Shown here: positions 6,682-59,589 of the stretch, piece after piece
Position numbering within the stretch: the first letter of the stretch is position 1
Layout of the letters: the number at the start of each line of letters is the position of its first letter
Source: Piscirickettsiaceae bacterium
GTDB taxonomy: Bacteria; Pseudomonadota; Gammaproteobacteria; Nitrosococcales; Methylophagaceae
Assembly (NCBI GenBank): GCA_013215805.1
Contig: JABSQM010000014.1
Location: forward strand, 186,001 to 250,000
Length of the DNA: 64,000 nucleotides
Reading direction: 5' to 3'
Position numbers and translations under genes: made by a program
Notes under the pieces: model-generated
The model's input: only the letters and a program-made list of their open reading frames with translations
The model's database searches: none
Told to the model about the DNA's origin: nothing

Positions 6682-7413
6682 CTATTGAGCTTTAATCATC
6701 CTACCATTGATAAACAAACTGTCATCACCCATTAGATAGACATAATTAGAGACAACATCCTCAGAAGCAAGCAAGCCCCAGGGATCAACAGCCGGATATG
6801 TCTGAACATGAAGTTTTGTCCTCACTGTACCTGGATCAATACAGTTCACTCGAATACAACCTCCACTCTCCAATTCATCGGCTAATTGATTGCTTAAAGC
6901 TGCAATTCCAGCCTTGCTAATTCCATAACCAGCCCAATAAGCCTTATTATTATGATTATCAGTAGTAAAAATAATTGATGATTTATCAGATTTTTCCATC
7001 AATGATAGACATGAGCGAGTTAGGAAATAAGTTGAAATCAAATTGATGTGAATGGTTGCTAACCAAATCAGGGGATCCTGATATTGAACTGGAGCTAATT
7101 GGCCGATGCTAGCAGCACAATGAGCTAGGCCATCAAGATGGTTTAATTTATCATAAATTCTGGTTACGAGCATATCATAATCATCGATCGAGGCTCCTCC
7201 AAAATTCAAGGGATAAATGGCAGGTGTTGGACCGCCTGAACCAATAATTTCATCGTATACTTGCTCAAGATCGGAGATATTTTTATCAAGCAGGATAACT
7301 GTAGCTCCATGAATAGCATAACTTTTAGCAACAGCAGCACCAATGCAACTACCGGCTCCAGTAACAAGAATAACTCTATCCTTTAGAAGGTCTGTAGTAG
7401 CAGTGTAATTCAT
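6682..7413 (-). CDS. yciK: YciK-like short-chain dehydrogenase, worn active site
   Basis: A 243-residue Rossmann-fold SDR that aligns along its length with E. coli YciK (start LLKDRVILVTGA, centre LDGLAHCAA, end NCIDPGTVRTKL and YLMGDDS). Physiological substrate unknown. Three hallmark motifs have drifted: the cofactor loop reads TGAGSCIG instead of TGASDGIG; the NAG motif after the fourth strand reads CAA; and the catalytic serine stretch (FTSSS in YciK) reads FTTDN with about two residues missing, although the YxxxK pair (YGISK) is present. It may bind nucleotide without normal catalysis or be an early casualty of erosion. The frame is open end to end. Confidence 0.8.
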   Translation of the reverse strand: MNYTATTDLLKDRVILVTGAGSCIGAAVAKSYAIHGATVILLDKNISDLEQVYDEIIGSGGPTPAIYPLNFGGASIDDYDMLVTRIYDKLNHLDGLAHCAASIGQLAPVQYQDPLIWLATIHINLISTYFLTRSCLSLMEKSDKSSIIFTTDNHNNKAYWAGYGISKAGIAALSNQLADELESGGCIRVNCIDPGTVRTKLHVQTYPAVDPWGLLASEDVVSNYVYLMGDDSLFINGRMIKAQ

Positions 7414-8184
7414 TTAGATGGTTGTACCAAGTTTAACTAAAGACGACTTTATACTATACAGTATACAATAGGTTCAAAGTGATTGACCTATTGACAGAAA
7501 CCATAATTTAACTGAAACTATTCTTACCCAATAATCTAATATTAGCTTTCTTAAAATACCTGTCTCAACATCGATAGCATTATACAACTATAATTACGAT
7601 AATTGAAATTAGTATAGGTTGTGTCACAGGCGACTACTATTACTACAACCAATCATAAGTTGAAGCTAATAATAAGAATAAAAATAACTAAACGTGCACA
7701 ATCAAGCATATATGACTTTATGATAATAAAAATAATAGCCTATTAATTACAACAGTGATTAAACGATGATATCGATAATGATCGATTCCTATCAACTGCA
7801 ATTACTTCCTAGTTTATACTATTTATTATTGCTCCTTAAGGCGTTCCATTAAGAAATGGATTAATCACGTTAATATCGATCATAACTACAATCTTCCTAT
7901 ATTTCATAGATATTATAGCTTACAAGTAAAATCCAGATCATATACTGAATGATAGAAGTGATAATAACCGATCAAAGACTGATCTTCACCAAATAATATC
8001 ACAAATTTATTATTTTATATTTGCTTATAATTACCAATCATATTGATATATGTCAAGCGATTAAATTTTTAGCTATCAAACATCCATTAAATAAATTAAT
8101 AACACCAATTTCATCAACCATAATCAAAATTGTCATACTCCTTGAAAACACATACATTTTTTCCTGCCTATTTATCCGCCACGA
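7414..8184. other. spacer between yciK and the synthase relic
   Basis: No gene recognised. In Pseudomonas mupP and ubiG precede yciK on the same strand. I looked for an HAD or methyltransferase signature on the minus strand and found none. Confidence 0.35.
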
Positions 8185-8955
8185 TAGCTATAATTTTTGA
8201 TCTAGGTTAATAAAACCATAGTGTTGCATCACTTTATAACCATCTGCTTCAATCCCATTCAGGATAGCATCATGGATGGCTGCTATGTCCGACCCAGCAC
8301 GTCAAGTATGGCAATCACATTTAGAAGGCACTTCTCCTCATTGTAGGTAATAATTTTTAGCCCTATCAGACTGATATTTTAATAATTTTATAAGTTCAAA
8401 ACTAAATTCAAGATCAAGTAAATCCTTGATTTTCATATGAAGTCGCGTTAATTTATACTACAGTAGATATATGAGACCTCGCTCAGCATCCTTACGAACA
8501 TTGCAAATAATATTAATGAATTTCAGAGCTATACCTAATTTTAGGAGTATTGTCATGTAGATCTATTTTGATAACATAAGATTGCAGAAAATAGTAAGGC
8601 TCGCTACACTCGTAGTTAGGTAACAATGCAAAGATCCTTTTGTAAGAGAATGATAAATAAATTGGTCCAGATCCATTGCGATACCATCAACAATTTTCAT
8701 AGAATATCCTTCGTGCGAATTAAAGCTATTAATCGCCCTCCATAAAACCTTACTAACAGGATGTATCGCAGCTCTCTTGAATAGGAAGATCCTATAACAT
8801 CACTAATCTAATGTTTTAAGGCAAAAAATTATCATCTATCTCGTCAAGAATATCATCTAACCCACGATAAAAAGCATATAAATAAACAATAGTTCAGCAT
8901 TATTATTCCGATAAAAGCAAAGTCTATAATAAATACTAGATCAACTTTTCATGGC
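8185..8955 (-). pseudogene. decayed squalene/phytoene synthase (HpnD-type)
   Basis: Minus-strand translation across frames gives a trans-isoprenyl head-to-head synthase in order. Near 8940-8900 is a SIYYRLCFY segment (family S-FYY). At about 8876-8835 is the first aspartate motif RGLDDILDEIDD. At about 8755-8660 is RAINSF followed by KIVDGIAMDLDQF, and at about 8530-8460 is INIICNVRKDAERGLIYLL (second motif, consensus NI-RDV-EDA-RGR-YLP). Then come YQSDRAKNYY near 8370 and AIHDAILNGIEADGYKVM near 8270-8215. Several stops and frame changes break it, and the second motif has lost its first aspartate. The living enzyme would make phytoene or (pre)squalene diphosphate from C15/C20 diphosphates, as in hopanoid or carotenoid synthesis. 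ispB lies just upstream on the same strand. Confidence 0.85.
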
Positions 8956-9288
8956 CTTATAATGACGATATTAATTAGGTGCCATCACCCTGATCTATGA
9001 ATCATCATATACAACGTTTAAAAATATAATTTATATATTTTCAATATATACCTCTGATTTTCATCATGGATGACCAATAATTTATAAATTTTTGCATAAC
9101 CTATTATTTATGATAAGACACGATAATCTGGACAATTGAACCTCTTATTACACCTCATACCTCCGACAATTTAATATCCATAATCATTTAATTCATACAT
9201 ATATATTTGTAGTAAAATTATTTCAGTGAATAATCTGACAGACATAATCATAAAGTCATAAATTAATAATCAAGTAATTGCAAATATA
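8956..9288. other. spacer downstream of ispB
   Basis: About 330 AT-rich bases between the synthase relic and the ispB stop. No gene or convincing terminator seen. Confidence 0.4.
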
Positions 9289-10257
9289 TTAATAGGTTCG
9301 TTTTATAGAAAAATCGGCTAATTTCAATAAAGCATCTTTATAAATTGAGTCAACAATGACAGACAATGCAGCTTTGGCATTATTTACTTCCCGCTCTGCT
9401 ACTTGCAATGTATATTCGACTGCACCAGTCTGATGAATGATGGCAATAACTTGATCGATCTTATCGCGTTGTCCCTCTTTAATAGCAGTACGAATAATAT
9501 GAACCTGATCCTTGACACCATGCTGCATAGCATATATTAGAGGCAGTGTAGGCTTACCTTCAGATAGATCATCTCCAATATTCTTACCTATAGATTTACT
9601 GGAAATATCATAATCTAATAAATCATCCATTAATTGAAAGGCACTACCCACATGCATTGAATATTTAGTAATGGCTGTTTCGATATCAGCCGAGGAATTC
9701 GTAATTACAGCACCTAACCGACCCGCAGCTTCGAATAATTTAGCCGTCTTATGATGAATAACTTCCAAATAACGCGCTTCAGTGGTGTCAGCATCATGAC
9801 AGTTAAGCAATTGAAGAACCTCCCCTTCGGCGATAACATTGGTAGTATGGGACAGGATTCTCATTAATTGCATTGAATTCATTTCCACCATCATCTCAAA
9901 TGAACGGGTGTAAAGAAAATCACCTACTAATACACTAGCCTCGTTACCCCATAAATTATTAGCCGTTTCACGACCACGGCGCATGTCAGAGTTATCAACA
10001 ACATCATCATGCAATAGAGTCGCAGTATGAATAAATTCAATAATGGTAGCTAAATTAATATGATAATTTCCTTGGTATCCACAAGCACGAGCACATAATA
10101 TGGATAATGTAGGCCGTAAACGCTTTCCACCACCATTAATGATATAACGTCCTAATTGATTGATTAACACTACTTCAGATTGCAACCGCTCCTGAATCAT
10201 TGTGTTAACTGATACCATATCTCTTTCAATTAAAGTATGAATGGATTTAATATCCAC
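9289..10257 (-). CDS. ispB: all-trans polyprenyl (octaprenyl) diphosphate synthase
   Basis: Builds the long prenyl tail of ubiquinone or menaquinone by adding isopentenyl diphosphate to farnesyl diphosphate. The 322 residues have the family layout: GGGKRLRP near residue 43, first aspartate-rich motif LLHDDVVDNSDMRRG near 82-96, VGDFLYTRSFE, HHKTAKLF, and second motif LMDDLLDYD near 208. The tail length cannot be read reliably from the sequence. It is divergent from rplU with about 125 bases between, the standard gammaproteobacterial arrangement. Its allylic substrate would come from IspA, encoded near 57 kb. Confidence 0.96.
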   Translation of the reverse strand: MDIKSIHTLIERDMVSVNTMIQERLQSEVVLINQLGRYIINGGGKRLRPTLSILCARACGYQGNYHINLATIIEFIHTATLLHDDVVDNSDMRRGRETANNLWGNEASVLVGDFLYTRSFEMMVEMNSMQLMRILSHTTNVIAEGEVLQLLNCHDADTTEARYLEVIHHKTAKLFEAAGRLGAVITNSSADIETAITKYSMHVGSAFQLMDDLLDYDISSKSIGKNIGDDLSEGKPTLPLIYAMQHGVKDQVHIIRTAIKEGQRDKIDQVIAIIHQTGAVEYTLQVAEREVNNAKAALSVIVDSIYKDALLKLADFSIKRTY

Positions 10258-14493: not shown

Positions 14494-14610
14494 AATCATT
14501 CTCCTAAGGGTTATATTTTATAATATATAATAAAGTATTATTAAGATTTGTAAAGAAAACATATTCAATAATAAATATCAGTTGTATGAAATTTATACCA
14601 CACAAAAATT

Positions 14611-15392
14611 ATGAAAATTATTACTGCTAATGTTAATGGTATCAGAGCTGCTAAAAAAAAGGATTTTTTAATTGGCTAGAGGACGAACAAGCAGATATAG
14701 TATGTATTCAAGAGATAAAAGCACAAATCAATCAATTACATTGTGCCAGGTATCATCCTAAGGGATATCACTGTTTCTATCATGATTCTAAAAGGAAAGG
14801 CTATGGTGGCGTAGCATTATATTGCCGTCTAGAACCGAACGATGTGATTATTGGTATGGGCAACAAGGAGTTTGATGACGAAAGTCGTTACGTTGAGGCA
14901 AAATTTAAAAATATCAGTGTCATTTCTCTATATATACCATCAGGATCTTCAAATGAAAAACGTCAATTGGCCAAATATCGTTGCATGTATTATATGATGA
15001 AAAAAATGAAAGAAATGGGGGGCACACTCCGTGATTACATCATAACCGGAGATTGGAATATAGCTCACAAAAAGGTAGATATACATAACTGGCAAGGCAA
15101 TCTGAAAAATACAGGATTTTTACCAGAAGAACGTGCATGGATAGATACACTCTTAAATGAAATGGGCTTTATAGATGCTTTTCGCGAATTAGAACAAGAA
15201 AAACATTCATATACTTGGTGGTCGAACCGTGGTAAGGCATGGAATAATAATGTAGGATGGCGAATCGATTATCATGTATTATCTCCAGCTTTGAAAGGCA
15301 AGGTGATAAAGACTAAAATTTATAAAAGTAAGCGTTTTTCGGATCATGCACCATTGATAATTGATTATGATTATGCAGTAACAGACGCATGA
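14611..15392 (+). pseudogene. xthA: exodeoxyribonuclease III with poly-A frameshift
   Basis: Apurinic-site endonuclease / 3' exonuclease of base-excision repair. The first 16 codons (14611 on) read MKIITANVNGIRAAKK, then an A8 run (14663-14670) throws the frame to a stop. One extra A restores GFFNWLEDEQADIVCIQEIKAQ, and from there the frame stays open to 15392. The downstream part keeps the catalytic features: IQEIKA, KGYGGVALY, ITGDWNIAH, WRIDYH and the terminal SDHAP. Apart from the run, the whole 260-residue protein looks healthy. It could be an incipient pseudogene, an assembly error, or a gene rescued by slippage on the A tract, as described for poly-A tracts in insect-endosymbiont genomes. 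Confidence 0.85.
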
Positions 15393-55532: not shown

Positions 55533-55925
55533 CTAAGTGAAATAAGCATGTGCTTGTCGACAATCTTCGTTAATCTGATTTATTAATTGTTTCATATCAG
55601 AAAAATTCTGTTCGTCCCTTAACTTATGTAGGAAATTCACTCGTACATATTTGCCATAAATTTCATCAGAAAAATTAAATAAATGCACTTCTAACATGAT
55701 TTTTCTTCCATTGAATGTAGGCCGAATACCTAAATTAACAACGCCTCTGACTGGCTCACCTTTAATACCATATAGCAAAGCTACATAGACTCCTTTTATG
55801 GGTATTGTATATCTGCATAAATATATATTAGCTGTTGGAAACCCCATGGTACGACCTATTTTATTTCCATGGGAAATACGTCCACTGATGCTGTACGGTC
55901 TCCCCAATAATCTATTAGCCAACAT
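55533..55925 (-). CDS. ribF: riboflavin kinase domain, intact remnant of RibF
   Basis: C-terminal half of the bifunctional RibF protein, which phosphorylates riboflavin to FMN. 130 residues from an ATG that has AGGTG seven bases upstream (MLANRLLGRPYSISGRI). All riboflavin-kinase landmarks are kept: HGNKIGRTMGFPTANI near residue 19, KGVYVALLYG, GVVNLGIRPTFNG, EVHLFNFSDEIYGKYV and FLHKLRDEQNF. The frame is open upstream only to a TAG at 56022-56024, and beyond that the FAD-synthetase half is wrecked (separate entry). Whether this short frame is translated alone to make FMN, or is just the less decayed end of a dead gene, is undecided. Confidence 0.7.
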   Translation of the reverse strand: MLANRLLGRPYSISGRISHGNKIGRTMGFPTANIYLCRYTIPIKGVYVALLYGIKGEPVRGVVNLGIRPTFNGRKIMLEVHLFNFSDEIYGKYVRVNFLHKLRDEQNFSDMKQLINQINEDCRQAHAYFT

Positions 55926-56445
55926 TAAATCACCTGATAGTAATGATCTACGAATTAGGGCACTACTTACACGGATCTGATCAACTAAAAATGTATTAAT
56001 ATCGAATGATTCAAGATCAAACTAATTGCTATATTCATACAATGAAGCATGATCTCCTTGTCTCTACTTTACCAAAATGAAAATCATTTCCCAAGACTAG
56101 GCAACGCACATTGTAACTATTAATTAATAATTTTTTAACAAAAAACTGCGCAATCATCTGTGCTAATTCTCCATTAAAGTACAACACACATCTTTGCCCT
56201 ACAAAGTAGATATCCGATGTCCCAATTTTTCCCCATATCTACTGATACACACCGAAGACTCATTAAAAAAACAGGAAATCATCTGGCTTGTGACTCAAAG
56301 GTAATAACTAAAATCGATAACCCTAATTAATTGTCCTTCTGTACCAGTTTATTTAATATCAATTGATGACTCGAATAAACACCATAAAAATCAACAATGG
56401 CAAATGAACATGTTTGAGATATGAATGTAATATTAGAGAAAATAA
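55926..56445 (-). pseudogene. ribF: ruined FAD synthetase half of ribF
   Basis: Upstream of the kinase half the minus strand still shows the FMN adenylyltransferase domain in order. FAIVDFYGVYSSHQLILNKLVQK near 56420-56350 stands for the family ATIGNFDGVHLGHQ, with the nucleotide-binding HLGH destroyed. LVITFESQAR is near 56310, MCVVLYFNGELAQMIAQFFVKKL near 56190, RCLVLGNDFHFGK near 56090, and IRVSSALIRRSLLSGDL joins the kinase half. At least three stops and several frame changes interrupt it. The intact protein would be about 310 residues. Confidence 0.88.
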
Positions 56446-56760
56446 AATATATTTTATACATAATAGTCTAATATTCACAGATAAATAAATTTAAGATATA
56501 TAAATAATTTAACAGGCAAGTATATTGGATAATTATTAAGATAATTAAGGGTAGATCGTTATTGAGTCCAACTCTGATACTAACAATAGCAGTGAAAATA
56601 AATTATAATTATTCAAAATAATGCCTATAATGAACTGGATGTAGAGTATCTACATTTTGAAAATCAGTGCATTCTATCAATTACTTTACAAGCTAGTTAA
56701 AATTGATAAATAAAAAGTGCATATGCTGTAAAAATTTAGTTAATTAATATTAAAAATATT

Positions 56761-57684
56761 TTGGATTTAAGCCCTACACAAACTGTGAATAATAATTTTT
56801 TACTTCATAAATGGATGCTTCAACACCAACAACGCATAGAATCTGTTCTAAATTGCCAATTGTTAGATCATGAAAACAGGAAAATATCAGTTCAATTGCT
56901 TGCTGCTATGCGTTATTCAACTCTAAATGGCGGAAAACGTTTGCGTGCTCTGTTAGTATATGCTACTGGTAAAACATTAAATGCTGATTTTAATACGTTG
57001 GATGCACCTGCAAGTGCCGTCGAAATGATCCATACTTATTCATTGGTCCATGATGATATGCCAATAATGGATAACGACGATTTGCGCCGCGGCCGTCCCA
57101 CATGTCACAAGGCCTATGATGATGCCACGGCTTTATTAGTTGGAGATGCCTTACAAACATTAGCCTTTGAAAGTTTATGTGATGATAAGTTAACCTCTAT
57201 TCAACAAAATAAAATGGTCAAGACCTTAGCACAACGTTCTGGCGTTTATGGCATGGCTAGTGGTCAAGCTATTGATCTGGAATCGACCGATAAGACACTT
57301 GATCTAGCATCATTACAAACCATGCATGAACTCAAAACAGGCGCCTTATTTCAAGCCAGTGTACGACTGGGGGCTTTGGCATCAGGAGATATTGACGATC
57401 ACAGCTTATCTAAACTAGATCACTATGCCTTCTGTCTTGGTCTAGCCTTCCAAGTACGAGATGATATACTTGATGTAATCGCAAATACAGATACCTTAGG
57501 TAAAATTAAAGGTGCTGATATTGCATTAAATAAACCTACTTATCCAGCCTTAATAGGTTTAGCACAAGCACAACGAAAAGCAGATGATTTAATTAAGAGA
57601 GCACAAATTTATCTTAATGATTTATCCTATGATACTCATATTCTTTCCGCATTAGCTCAATTTGTCATACGACGTTCTAACTAG
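56761..57684 (+). CDS. ispA: farnesyl diphosphate synthase
   Basis: Condenses isopentenyl and dimethylallyl diphosphates to geranyl and farnesyl diphosphate. 307 residues if read from the TTG at 56761; an ATG at 56815 would give 289. Motifs: LNGGKRLRALLVYATG near 58, first aspartate motif LVHDDMPIMDNDDLRRG near 97, second FQVRDDILDV near 233, GKIKGADIALNKPTYPAL near 247. The CLD-type spacing of the first motif fits the short-chain bacterial enzyme. xseB and dxs, usual partners, are not visible. Confidence 0.95.
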   Translation: MDLSPTQTVNNNFLLHKWMLQHQQRIESVLNCQLLDHENRKISVQLLAAMRYSTLNGGKRLRALLVYATGKTLNADFNTLDAPASAVEMIHTYSLVHDDMPIMDNDDLRRGRPTCHKAYDDATALLVGDALQTLAFESLCDDKLTSIQQNKMVKTLAQRSGVYGMASGQAIDLESTDKTLDLASLQTMHELKTGALFQASVRLGALASGDIDDHSLSKLDHYAFCLGLAFQVRDDILDVIANTDTLGKIKGADIALNKPTYPALIGLAQAQRKADDLIKRAQIYLNDLSYDTHILSALAQFVIRRSN

Positions 57685-57726
57685 TCATAATTAAAAGGGT
57701 TAAAGTTTCGGACTATTATAGATATA

Positions 57727-57756
57727 ATACCTATATATATTTTTCATTATAGGTAT
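57727..57756 (+). terminator. weak hairpin after ispA
   Basis: Inverted repeat ATACCTATA/TATAGGTAT with a 12-base loop about 40 bases after the ispA stop. AT-rich, so a weak terminator at best. Confidence 0.35.
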
Positions 57757-59589
57757 AATATTATAAGAAACTTATTATAAATTTCGTCAGAGTTTGCATT
57801 CTTTAGGTTAACAGAGGTATGATTCACAGCCTCTTGATTATATTCATATATCAGCAATTAATTGTTACTCGTAAATTAAGTTCATCGAATTTGATCAAAT
57901 TTTCTTAATTACTGCGCTCTAGATGTGAATTTTTATCGTTTTGCAGAAAATAAATTAAATGCCTATATTTAGGTAGACAGATTTTTAGAGATGAATTTCT
58001 AAAAGAAATTTTAAAGTCTATTATAATTTCTACGAAAATATCTTTTTTATGACTTTACATTTCATTAAATTAGTGTACGAATATAAAATATATGTCCTAC
58101 AAAATTTTTTACTAAAGAATTAAGTTTGCCTAATATTAATCTATGAGAGCGTGGAATTTCATATATTTATGTAGCTATGGTTAAGTATATAAATAATTAT
58201 TTTATTATATTCATATACGTATTTATAAAATACATATCTATATTAGATCAGAAAACATATAGGCGGATAAATATAGATATGAACAATTTTTTGATTCACA
58301 GATATTGCATATATCAATTAATCTGGCATATGAAGGCTTATATAAGCTTTTGTTGATAACTAAGATCGAATTAATTAAATTGTGCTTTATTAAAAATTTA
58401 GTCATTCTACATACACGGTATTTACAAAATTACCAACGAAAATAAATCATAATTTTCGGCAACGTTGAAACCTATCAATGATTTATAAATCTTGGATAGA
58501 TTTTTATGCAATGATCGATCCTGAAAGATATTATATTATCTAATTGATACTGAAGTAAGAAGCGAGAAAGTAGTTATTAAAAAAATTTCCGATTGATGAC
58601 GAAAAGTTTGGTGAAATTACGATCTTGCTGATGAAAACCTACAAGATATTTTTAAGTTGTTCTGCTATCAACATCTACTATAGGGATGGGAAAGATAACA
58701 TTATTTTTAATTTGACGCTATGTAAAACAATTGTTTTCCCCACATACCTGCATTCACTAAAAGGCTATCGTCAAAGTGCAAAAAATCATATGACGTATCA
58801 TTTTTCTTAAAACAGTCACAGTTTTGTTTTTTCATCATGTCAGAATCTTGGTAAAATAGCAATATCTATGTGACCATTTACGATAGTCAATATTAAATAA
58901 TACACCAATCTATAACATGAATGCACCCCCCCCCCAAAGAATGTTGAAGCCATGTACTGCCCCCGTCAATAGCGAAAATTTCTTTGAAATTGATGGTGTA
59001 ATCGCACAAAATTTAAGATTAATAAAATATTTATTTAAATACTTGCAAATATATAGAATAGATTTTTAATTATTACAGTACCACCAAAGGTATTAAAAAA
59101 CTCTCTGTAGCAATTCATCATTCTGTCTCTTGTTGGATGGTCGGAAAATAGTTTATATTAAGACACCAGCCGATGGCTGAATTCAGTCCATGCTTCCACA
59201 ATATGCCATTCACTATTGTCTGATATGCCAAAGATAGTGCCTAATAGAAGGTTCGTCCGATGTAGAACTAACAACATCACAGTCCATATGAAACATCTAT
59301 TAACATGTAGATTACAATAGTGGGTTAACTATCAAAAATTTATCCCACAGCATCATCTACAAAATTATTAAATAATATAAAAGCTATATTAACAAACCAG
59401 TGCTTCACGAAAGAAAAAATATTGGATAATCAATAATTAATTTTATCTAATATTTATAACTATGAGTGGATTTTATAAAAATACATTTCAGATTGTTGTT
59501 ATCATTAAAATAACTACTTGTTTTGCTAGATTAGCTTTTGCATAATTAAATACATTAATTAAATTAACCAGATATCCAAGATGTAATCA
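57757..59589. other. 1.8-kb gene-poor region between ispA and gmhA
   Basis: No assignable gene. dxs, often next to ispA, was sought on the plus strand and not found. A 61-codon plus frame at 58625-58810 has no ribosome site. A C10 run lies at 58926-58935. One minus-strand stretch (59040-59265) looks like coding debris and is listed separately. Confidence 0.4.
59040..59265 (-). pseudogene. unidentified coding debris
   Basis: About 75 codons in one frame with a single TAA. The translation includes NSEWHIVEAWTEFSHRLVS before the stop and YKLFSDHPTRDRMM, NCYREFFNTFGG after it. The composition, richer in Trp, Arg and Asp than random AT-rich sequence, suggests a former protein. I do not recognise the family. 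Confidence 0.25.

Follow-up and report, generated by a model that had tools for sequence, protein, structure and literature searches.

The window, i.e. the whole stretch of 64,000 nucleotides analysed here, harbors on its minus strand the damaged remains of hpnD, the gene of presqualene diphosphate synthase (8158..8985), which were recognised by PF00494, TIGR03465, tblastn and a frameshift-tolerant alignment. HpnD joins two molecules of farnesyl diphosphate to presqualene diphosphate, and HpnC and HpnE complete the synthesis of squalene. The window is part of a 27-contig draft genome of 1.15 Mb from the family Methylophagaceae. Its nearest relatives, as judged by IspB and synteny, are the congeners Methylophaga sp. 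42_25_T18 and 41_12_T18, whose genomes (2.1 and 2.4 Mb) are about twice as large.

When all six frames of the whole genome were searched with PF00494 (cut-off 26 bits), the relic was found unaided with 53.1 bits and E=1.6e-14, and this was the only place in the genome that the profile matched. The match covers window positions 8224-8772 of the minus strand (contig 194224-194772) and includes four stops (two TGA and two TAG). Using HpnD of a congener as query, tblastn aligned residues 68-278 with 43% identity (E=7e-47). The frameshift-tolerant alignment, based on a profile built from the HpnD proteins of relatives, extended the relic to residues 1-278 of 285, corresponding to window positions 8985..8158, with a score of 498 compared to 35-55 for the controls (six stretches elsewhere in the window, and the opposite strand). 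In this alignment, 128 of 266 aligned codons (48%) are identical to HpnD of the congener, and 11 in-frame stops and about 12 frameshifts were counted. The original prediction of a squalene/phytoene synthase relic at 8185-8955 is borne out by these matches, including the significant one to a trans-isoprenyl synthase profile within that interval; it named the right place but missed about 30 bases on either side and gave no strand. It had also described both aspartate-rich motifs as readable, which holds for the first (8837..8857, minus strand), reading DDILDEI. The second (8476..8502, minus strand) is present but damaged: it reads NVRKDAERG in place of DVREDAERG in the congeners and has thereby lost its first aspartate.

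Several trans-isoprenyl synthase models were compared on the relic, and HpnD was the best of those tested. The read-through sequence scored 159.3 bits with the HpnD model, 68.9 with cyanobacterial CrtB and 58.7 with HpnC (TIGR03464), the squalene synthase of the three-enzyme route, which belongs to the same superfamily. While the reading of 159.3 bits is frame-corrected and fitted to HpnD, no fitting is involved in the raw six-frame match of TIGR03465, which reached 87.2 bits (E=3.8e-25). Both values lie below the curated TIGR03465 cut-off of 278.6 bits, as is to be expected of a decayed gene that is no working member of the family. In a phylogenetic tree, the relic grouped with HpnD apart from HpnC with a support of 100/100; its branch of 2.23 gave no finer placement within HpnD. 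The original prediction placed the relic in the correct superfamily; specifically, it is one of HpnD. The relic resembles HpnD (TIGR03465, PF00494) in its full-length similarity and in its position within a conserved ispB-fdx-hpnD-hpnE order, and differs from it in being dead, with stops, frameshifts and a damaged second aspartate-rich motif.

The conserved order in relatives comprises ispB, a 2Fe-2S ferredoxin gene, hpnD, hpnE, a small lipoprotein-like gene and a gene for a YciK-type short-chain dehydrogenase (SDR). The relic in the window likewise lies between ispB and the SDR gene, in this same order and thus at the ancestral position of hpnD. The upstream neighbor in the ancestral operon, ispB (octaprenyl diphosphate synthase; 9289..10257, minus strand), is an intact ORF that exceeds the cut-off of NF008140 and encodes a protein 80% identical to IspB of a congener. 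Downstream, the intact SDR gene (6682..7413, minus strand; NF006509, E=1e-70) shows 72% identity to its counterpart in a congener. The spacer between ispB and the relic (8986..9288, minus strand) is the site at which most relatives carry the 100-aa ferredoxin gene; no trace of it was found there, the profile alignment being at background (35.8 compared to 36-49 in controls). The ferredoxin gene is also missing at this place in Methylophaga sp. 41_12_T18. On the other side, a remnant of 744 bp (7414..8157, minus strand) occupies the site where relatives have about 1.7 kb with hpnE and the small lipoprotein-like gene. The hpnE profile alignment was at background here (42.2 compared to 36-46 in controls), as was that for the small lipoprotein-like gene, and blastn of the gaps on either side of the relic against the relatives gave just marginal, chance-level matches in unrelated places.

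The partner genes of hpnD are missing from the genome as a whole. No PF01593 protein was detected by a search that finds HpnE in both congeners. The gene hpnC, which the congeners carry at a second locus (ubiG-gph-rmuC-hpnC-cysM), gave no match, either as a gene or as a relic, to profiles that detect it in relatives, and rmuC, sought as a neighbor to locate the site of hpnC, was not found in the genome either. With hpnC and hpnE gone alongside the dead hpnD, the route is indeed lost, as originally proposed. In the genome and the congeners, neither a squalene-hopene cyclase nor, over the cut-off, a CrtI/CrtN-type desaturase was found. Intact HpnD over the cut-off occurs in 35 of 36 Methylophagaceae genomes that are at least 90% complete, the sole exception being the genome of the window; the remaining genomes of the family without a full-length HpnD match are incomplete ones. 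Across the family, hpnC, hpnD and hpnE are near-universal, yet the squalene-hopene cyclase occurs in none of the genomes searched.

The hopanoid or carotenoid that the original prediction ascribed to the ancestor finds no support in these distributions. For hopanoids, it could be argued that HpnC, HpnD and HpnE supplied squalene to a squalene-hopene cyclase which was lost as well, in keeping with the hpnCDE names and with the presence of the cyclase in all six sister-family genomes covered by the same search. We consider this highly unlikely, the search having found the cyclase in none of 23 Methylophagaceae genomes, both congeners included, so that its loss would predate the lineage of the window and the loss of hpnD. 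A full-length CrtI/CrtN-type desaturase over the cut-off was found in 3 of 57 genomes of the family and in none of this genus, where the matches comprise only short nucleotide-binding stretches. In three small Methylophagaceae genomes (1.2-1.7 Mb), a CrtI-type gene adjoins an extra PF00494 gene; the CrtI matches in two of them list one internal TGA. These pairs probably represent a carotenoid pathway separate from hpnCDE. They and the superfamily shared with CrtB and CrtM, reflected in the 68.9 bits of the CrtB model, are what could be cited for a relic of a carotenoid gene (CrtB/CrtM) from a pigmented ancestor; given the higher score of the HpnD model on the same reading, the location at the conserved hpnD position and the lack of any CrtI-family gene over the cut-off in the congeners, such an origin is extremely improbable. 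A trait of light or membrane protection is likewise not indicated, considering this distribution of cyclase and desaturase. Since no cyclase is present and desaturases are rare, the end product would be squalene itself or the product of an unrecognised enzyme. Squalene, or some derivative of it, is therefore the likely and more economical candidate for the product of the ancestor, and its loss cost the lineage no hopanoids and, so far as one can judge, no pigments.

Substitutions by codon position were compared at sites that are identical in the two congeners. The relic differs from them at 37% of first, 24% of second and 46% of third positions, compared to 13-22%, 5-10% and 42-46% in the intact neighboring genes and 13-14%, 6-7% and 39-43% in the intact hpnD genes of further relatives. 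Substitutions at first and second positions are thus raised two- to three-fold in the relic, which indicates relaxed selection and not indel errors. The ratio of second to third positions in the relic (0.40, 0.26-0.60) is intermediate between constrained and neutral, with 0.07-0.15 for the neighbors and 0.11-0.13 for intact hpnD, and the second position still lags behind the third, so selection must have acted on the gene during part of the lineage. In-frame stops, frameshifts and relaxed codon-position constraint are therefore all found in the relic, as in a pseudogene. Its substitutions are mostly C>T and G>A, which agrees with the decrease of G+C from 0.43 to 0.33. Because third positions are near saturation, the death of the gene can only be placed well after divergence from the congeners had begun. 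The losses are not all of one age, as hpnE and the ferredoxin gene are less well preserved than the relic. The notion that a working gene only looks broken through faults of assembly or sequencing, for which the draft state of the genome and a similar breakage of the usually essential ribF (see below) might speak, is hardly credible in view of the raised first- and second-position substitutions, which indel errors do not cause, the more than 3 kb of unbroken neighboring genes (ispB, the SDR gene, obgE and proB are all intact) and the concurrent absence of hpnC and hpnE.

The G+C content is about 35%, and ORFs of at least 80 aa cover about 64% of the window, leaving many gaps of 0.5-2 kb; the low G+C and the sparse ORF cover point to a decaying genome and not to a compact streamlined one. 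We infer a host-associated life of the organism. Its halved genome, low G+C and sparse coding resemble those of host-associated bacteria at a middle stage of genome reduction with their pseudogenes, as does a further relic in the same window, that of ribF (FAD synthetase/riboflavin kinase; 55539-56461, minus strand). Two stops and several frameshifts interrupt this gene, which is normally essential; it shows about 52% identity to its counterpart in a congener over 303 codons, and its C-terminal part is still open as an ORF of 130 aa. The present case differs from such bacteria in that no host is known and the lineage is Methylophagaceae. Few symbionts have been described in this family, the Idas mussel symbionts (PMC10199937) among them, and these fall into a clade (GCA-002733105) other than that of the window lineage. 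The literature yielded nothing that deals directly with squalene in Methylophaga or with a symbiont of this Methylophagaceae genus that has a reduced genome. An exonuclease III-like gene, xthA (14590-15380, plus strand), is split across two frames near its start; its identity of 70-73% to the congeners suggests a possibly recent break or a shifted start. The PQQ methanol dehydrogenase (TIGR03075) was not detected in the genome of the window and occurs in one or more copies in both congeners and two other genomes of the family. The organism thus seems to have lost methanol oxidation, though it is a member of a methylotroph family.

Most genes for isoprenoid precursors are retained. The gene ispA (56761-57684) is intact, and uppS, dxr, ispD, ispE, ispF, ispG and ispH are present in the genome. 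For dxs (TIGR00204), the only match in the genome is the transketolase; the scores in three relatives are 890-920 bits. In relatives, dxs follows ispA; the 1.9-kb stretch downstream of ispA (57685-59589) showed no trace of it, and no relics of queD or folE2 were found downstream of ispA. As genes can be absent from a draft assembly, the missing dxs is a lead only; it either stems from a gap in the assembly or means that 1-deoxyxylulose 5-phosphate comes from an unusual source. Next to an otherwise retained MEP pathway, it is worth settling.

Judged from its sequence, the stretch 8985..8158 is very probably an hpnD pseudogene without function, which a free-living ancestor within the Methylophagaceae passed on at this same place and which decayed during genome reduction. 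In this ancestor, HpnD, HpnC and HpnE would have made squalene, which was presumably no longer needed in the reduced lineage. Under such a relaxed need, hpnC, hpnE and the ferredoxin gene would have been removed by deletion and neutral decay, and hpnD would have been left as neutrally decaying DNA accumulating stops, frameshifts and A+T. Farnesyl diphosphate would now serve only essential products, namely the octaprenyl chain (IspB) and undecaprenyl (UppS).

The death of hpnD is unremarkable in a genome undergoing reduction, and it is the only loss seen here of a near-universal squalene route of the Methylophagaceae. A wider reading, which we regard as rather doubtful, is that the family maintains an orphan HpnC/HpnD/HpnE route throughout, lacking a cyclase and in most cases also a desaturase, with squalene itself as a membrane lipid, and that the lineage of the window gave this route up and at the same time turned to an external or unusual supply of 1-deoxyxylulose 5-phosphate. 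Ordinary as the relic is by itself, it points to the role of squalene in Methylophagaceae, and it is the missing hopanoid cyclase that raises the question of what these methylotrophs use squalene for.
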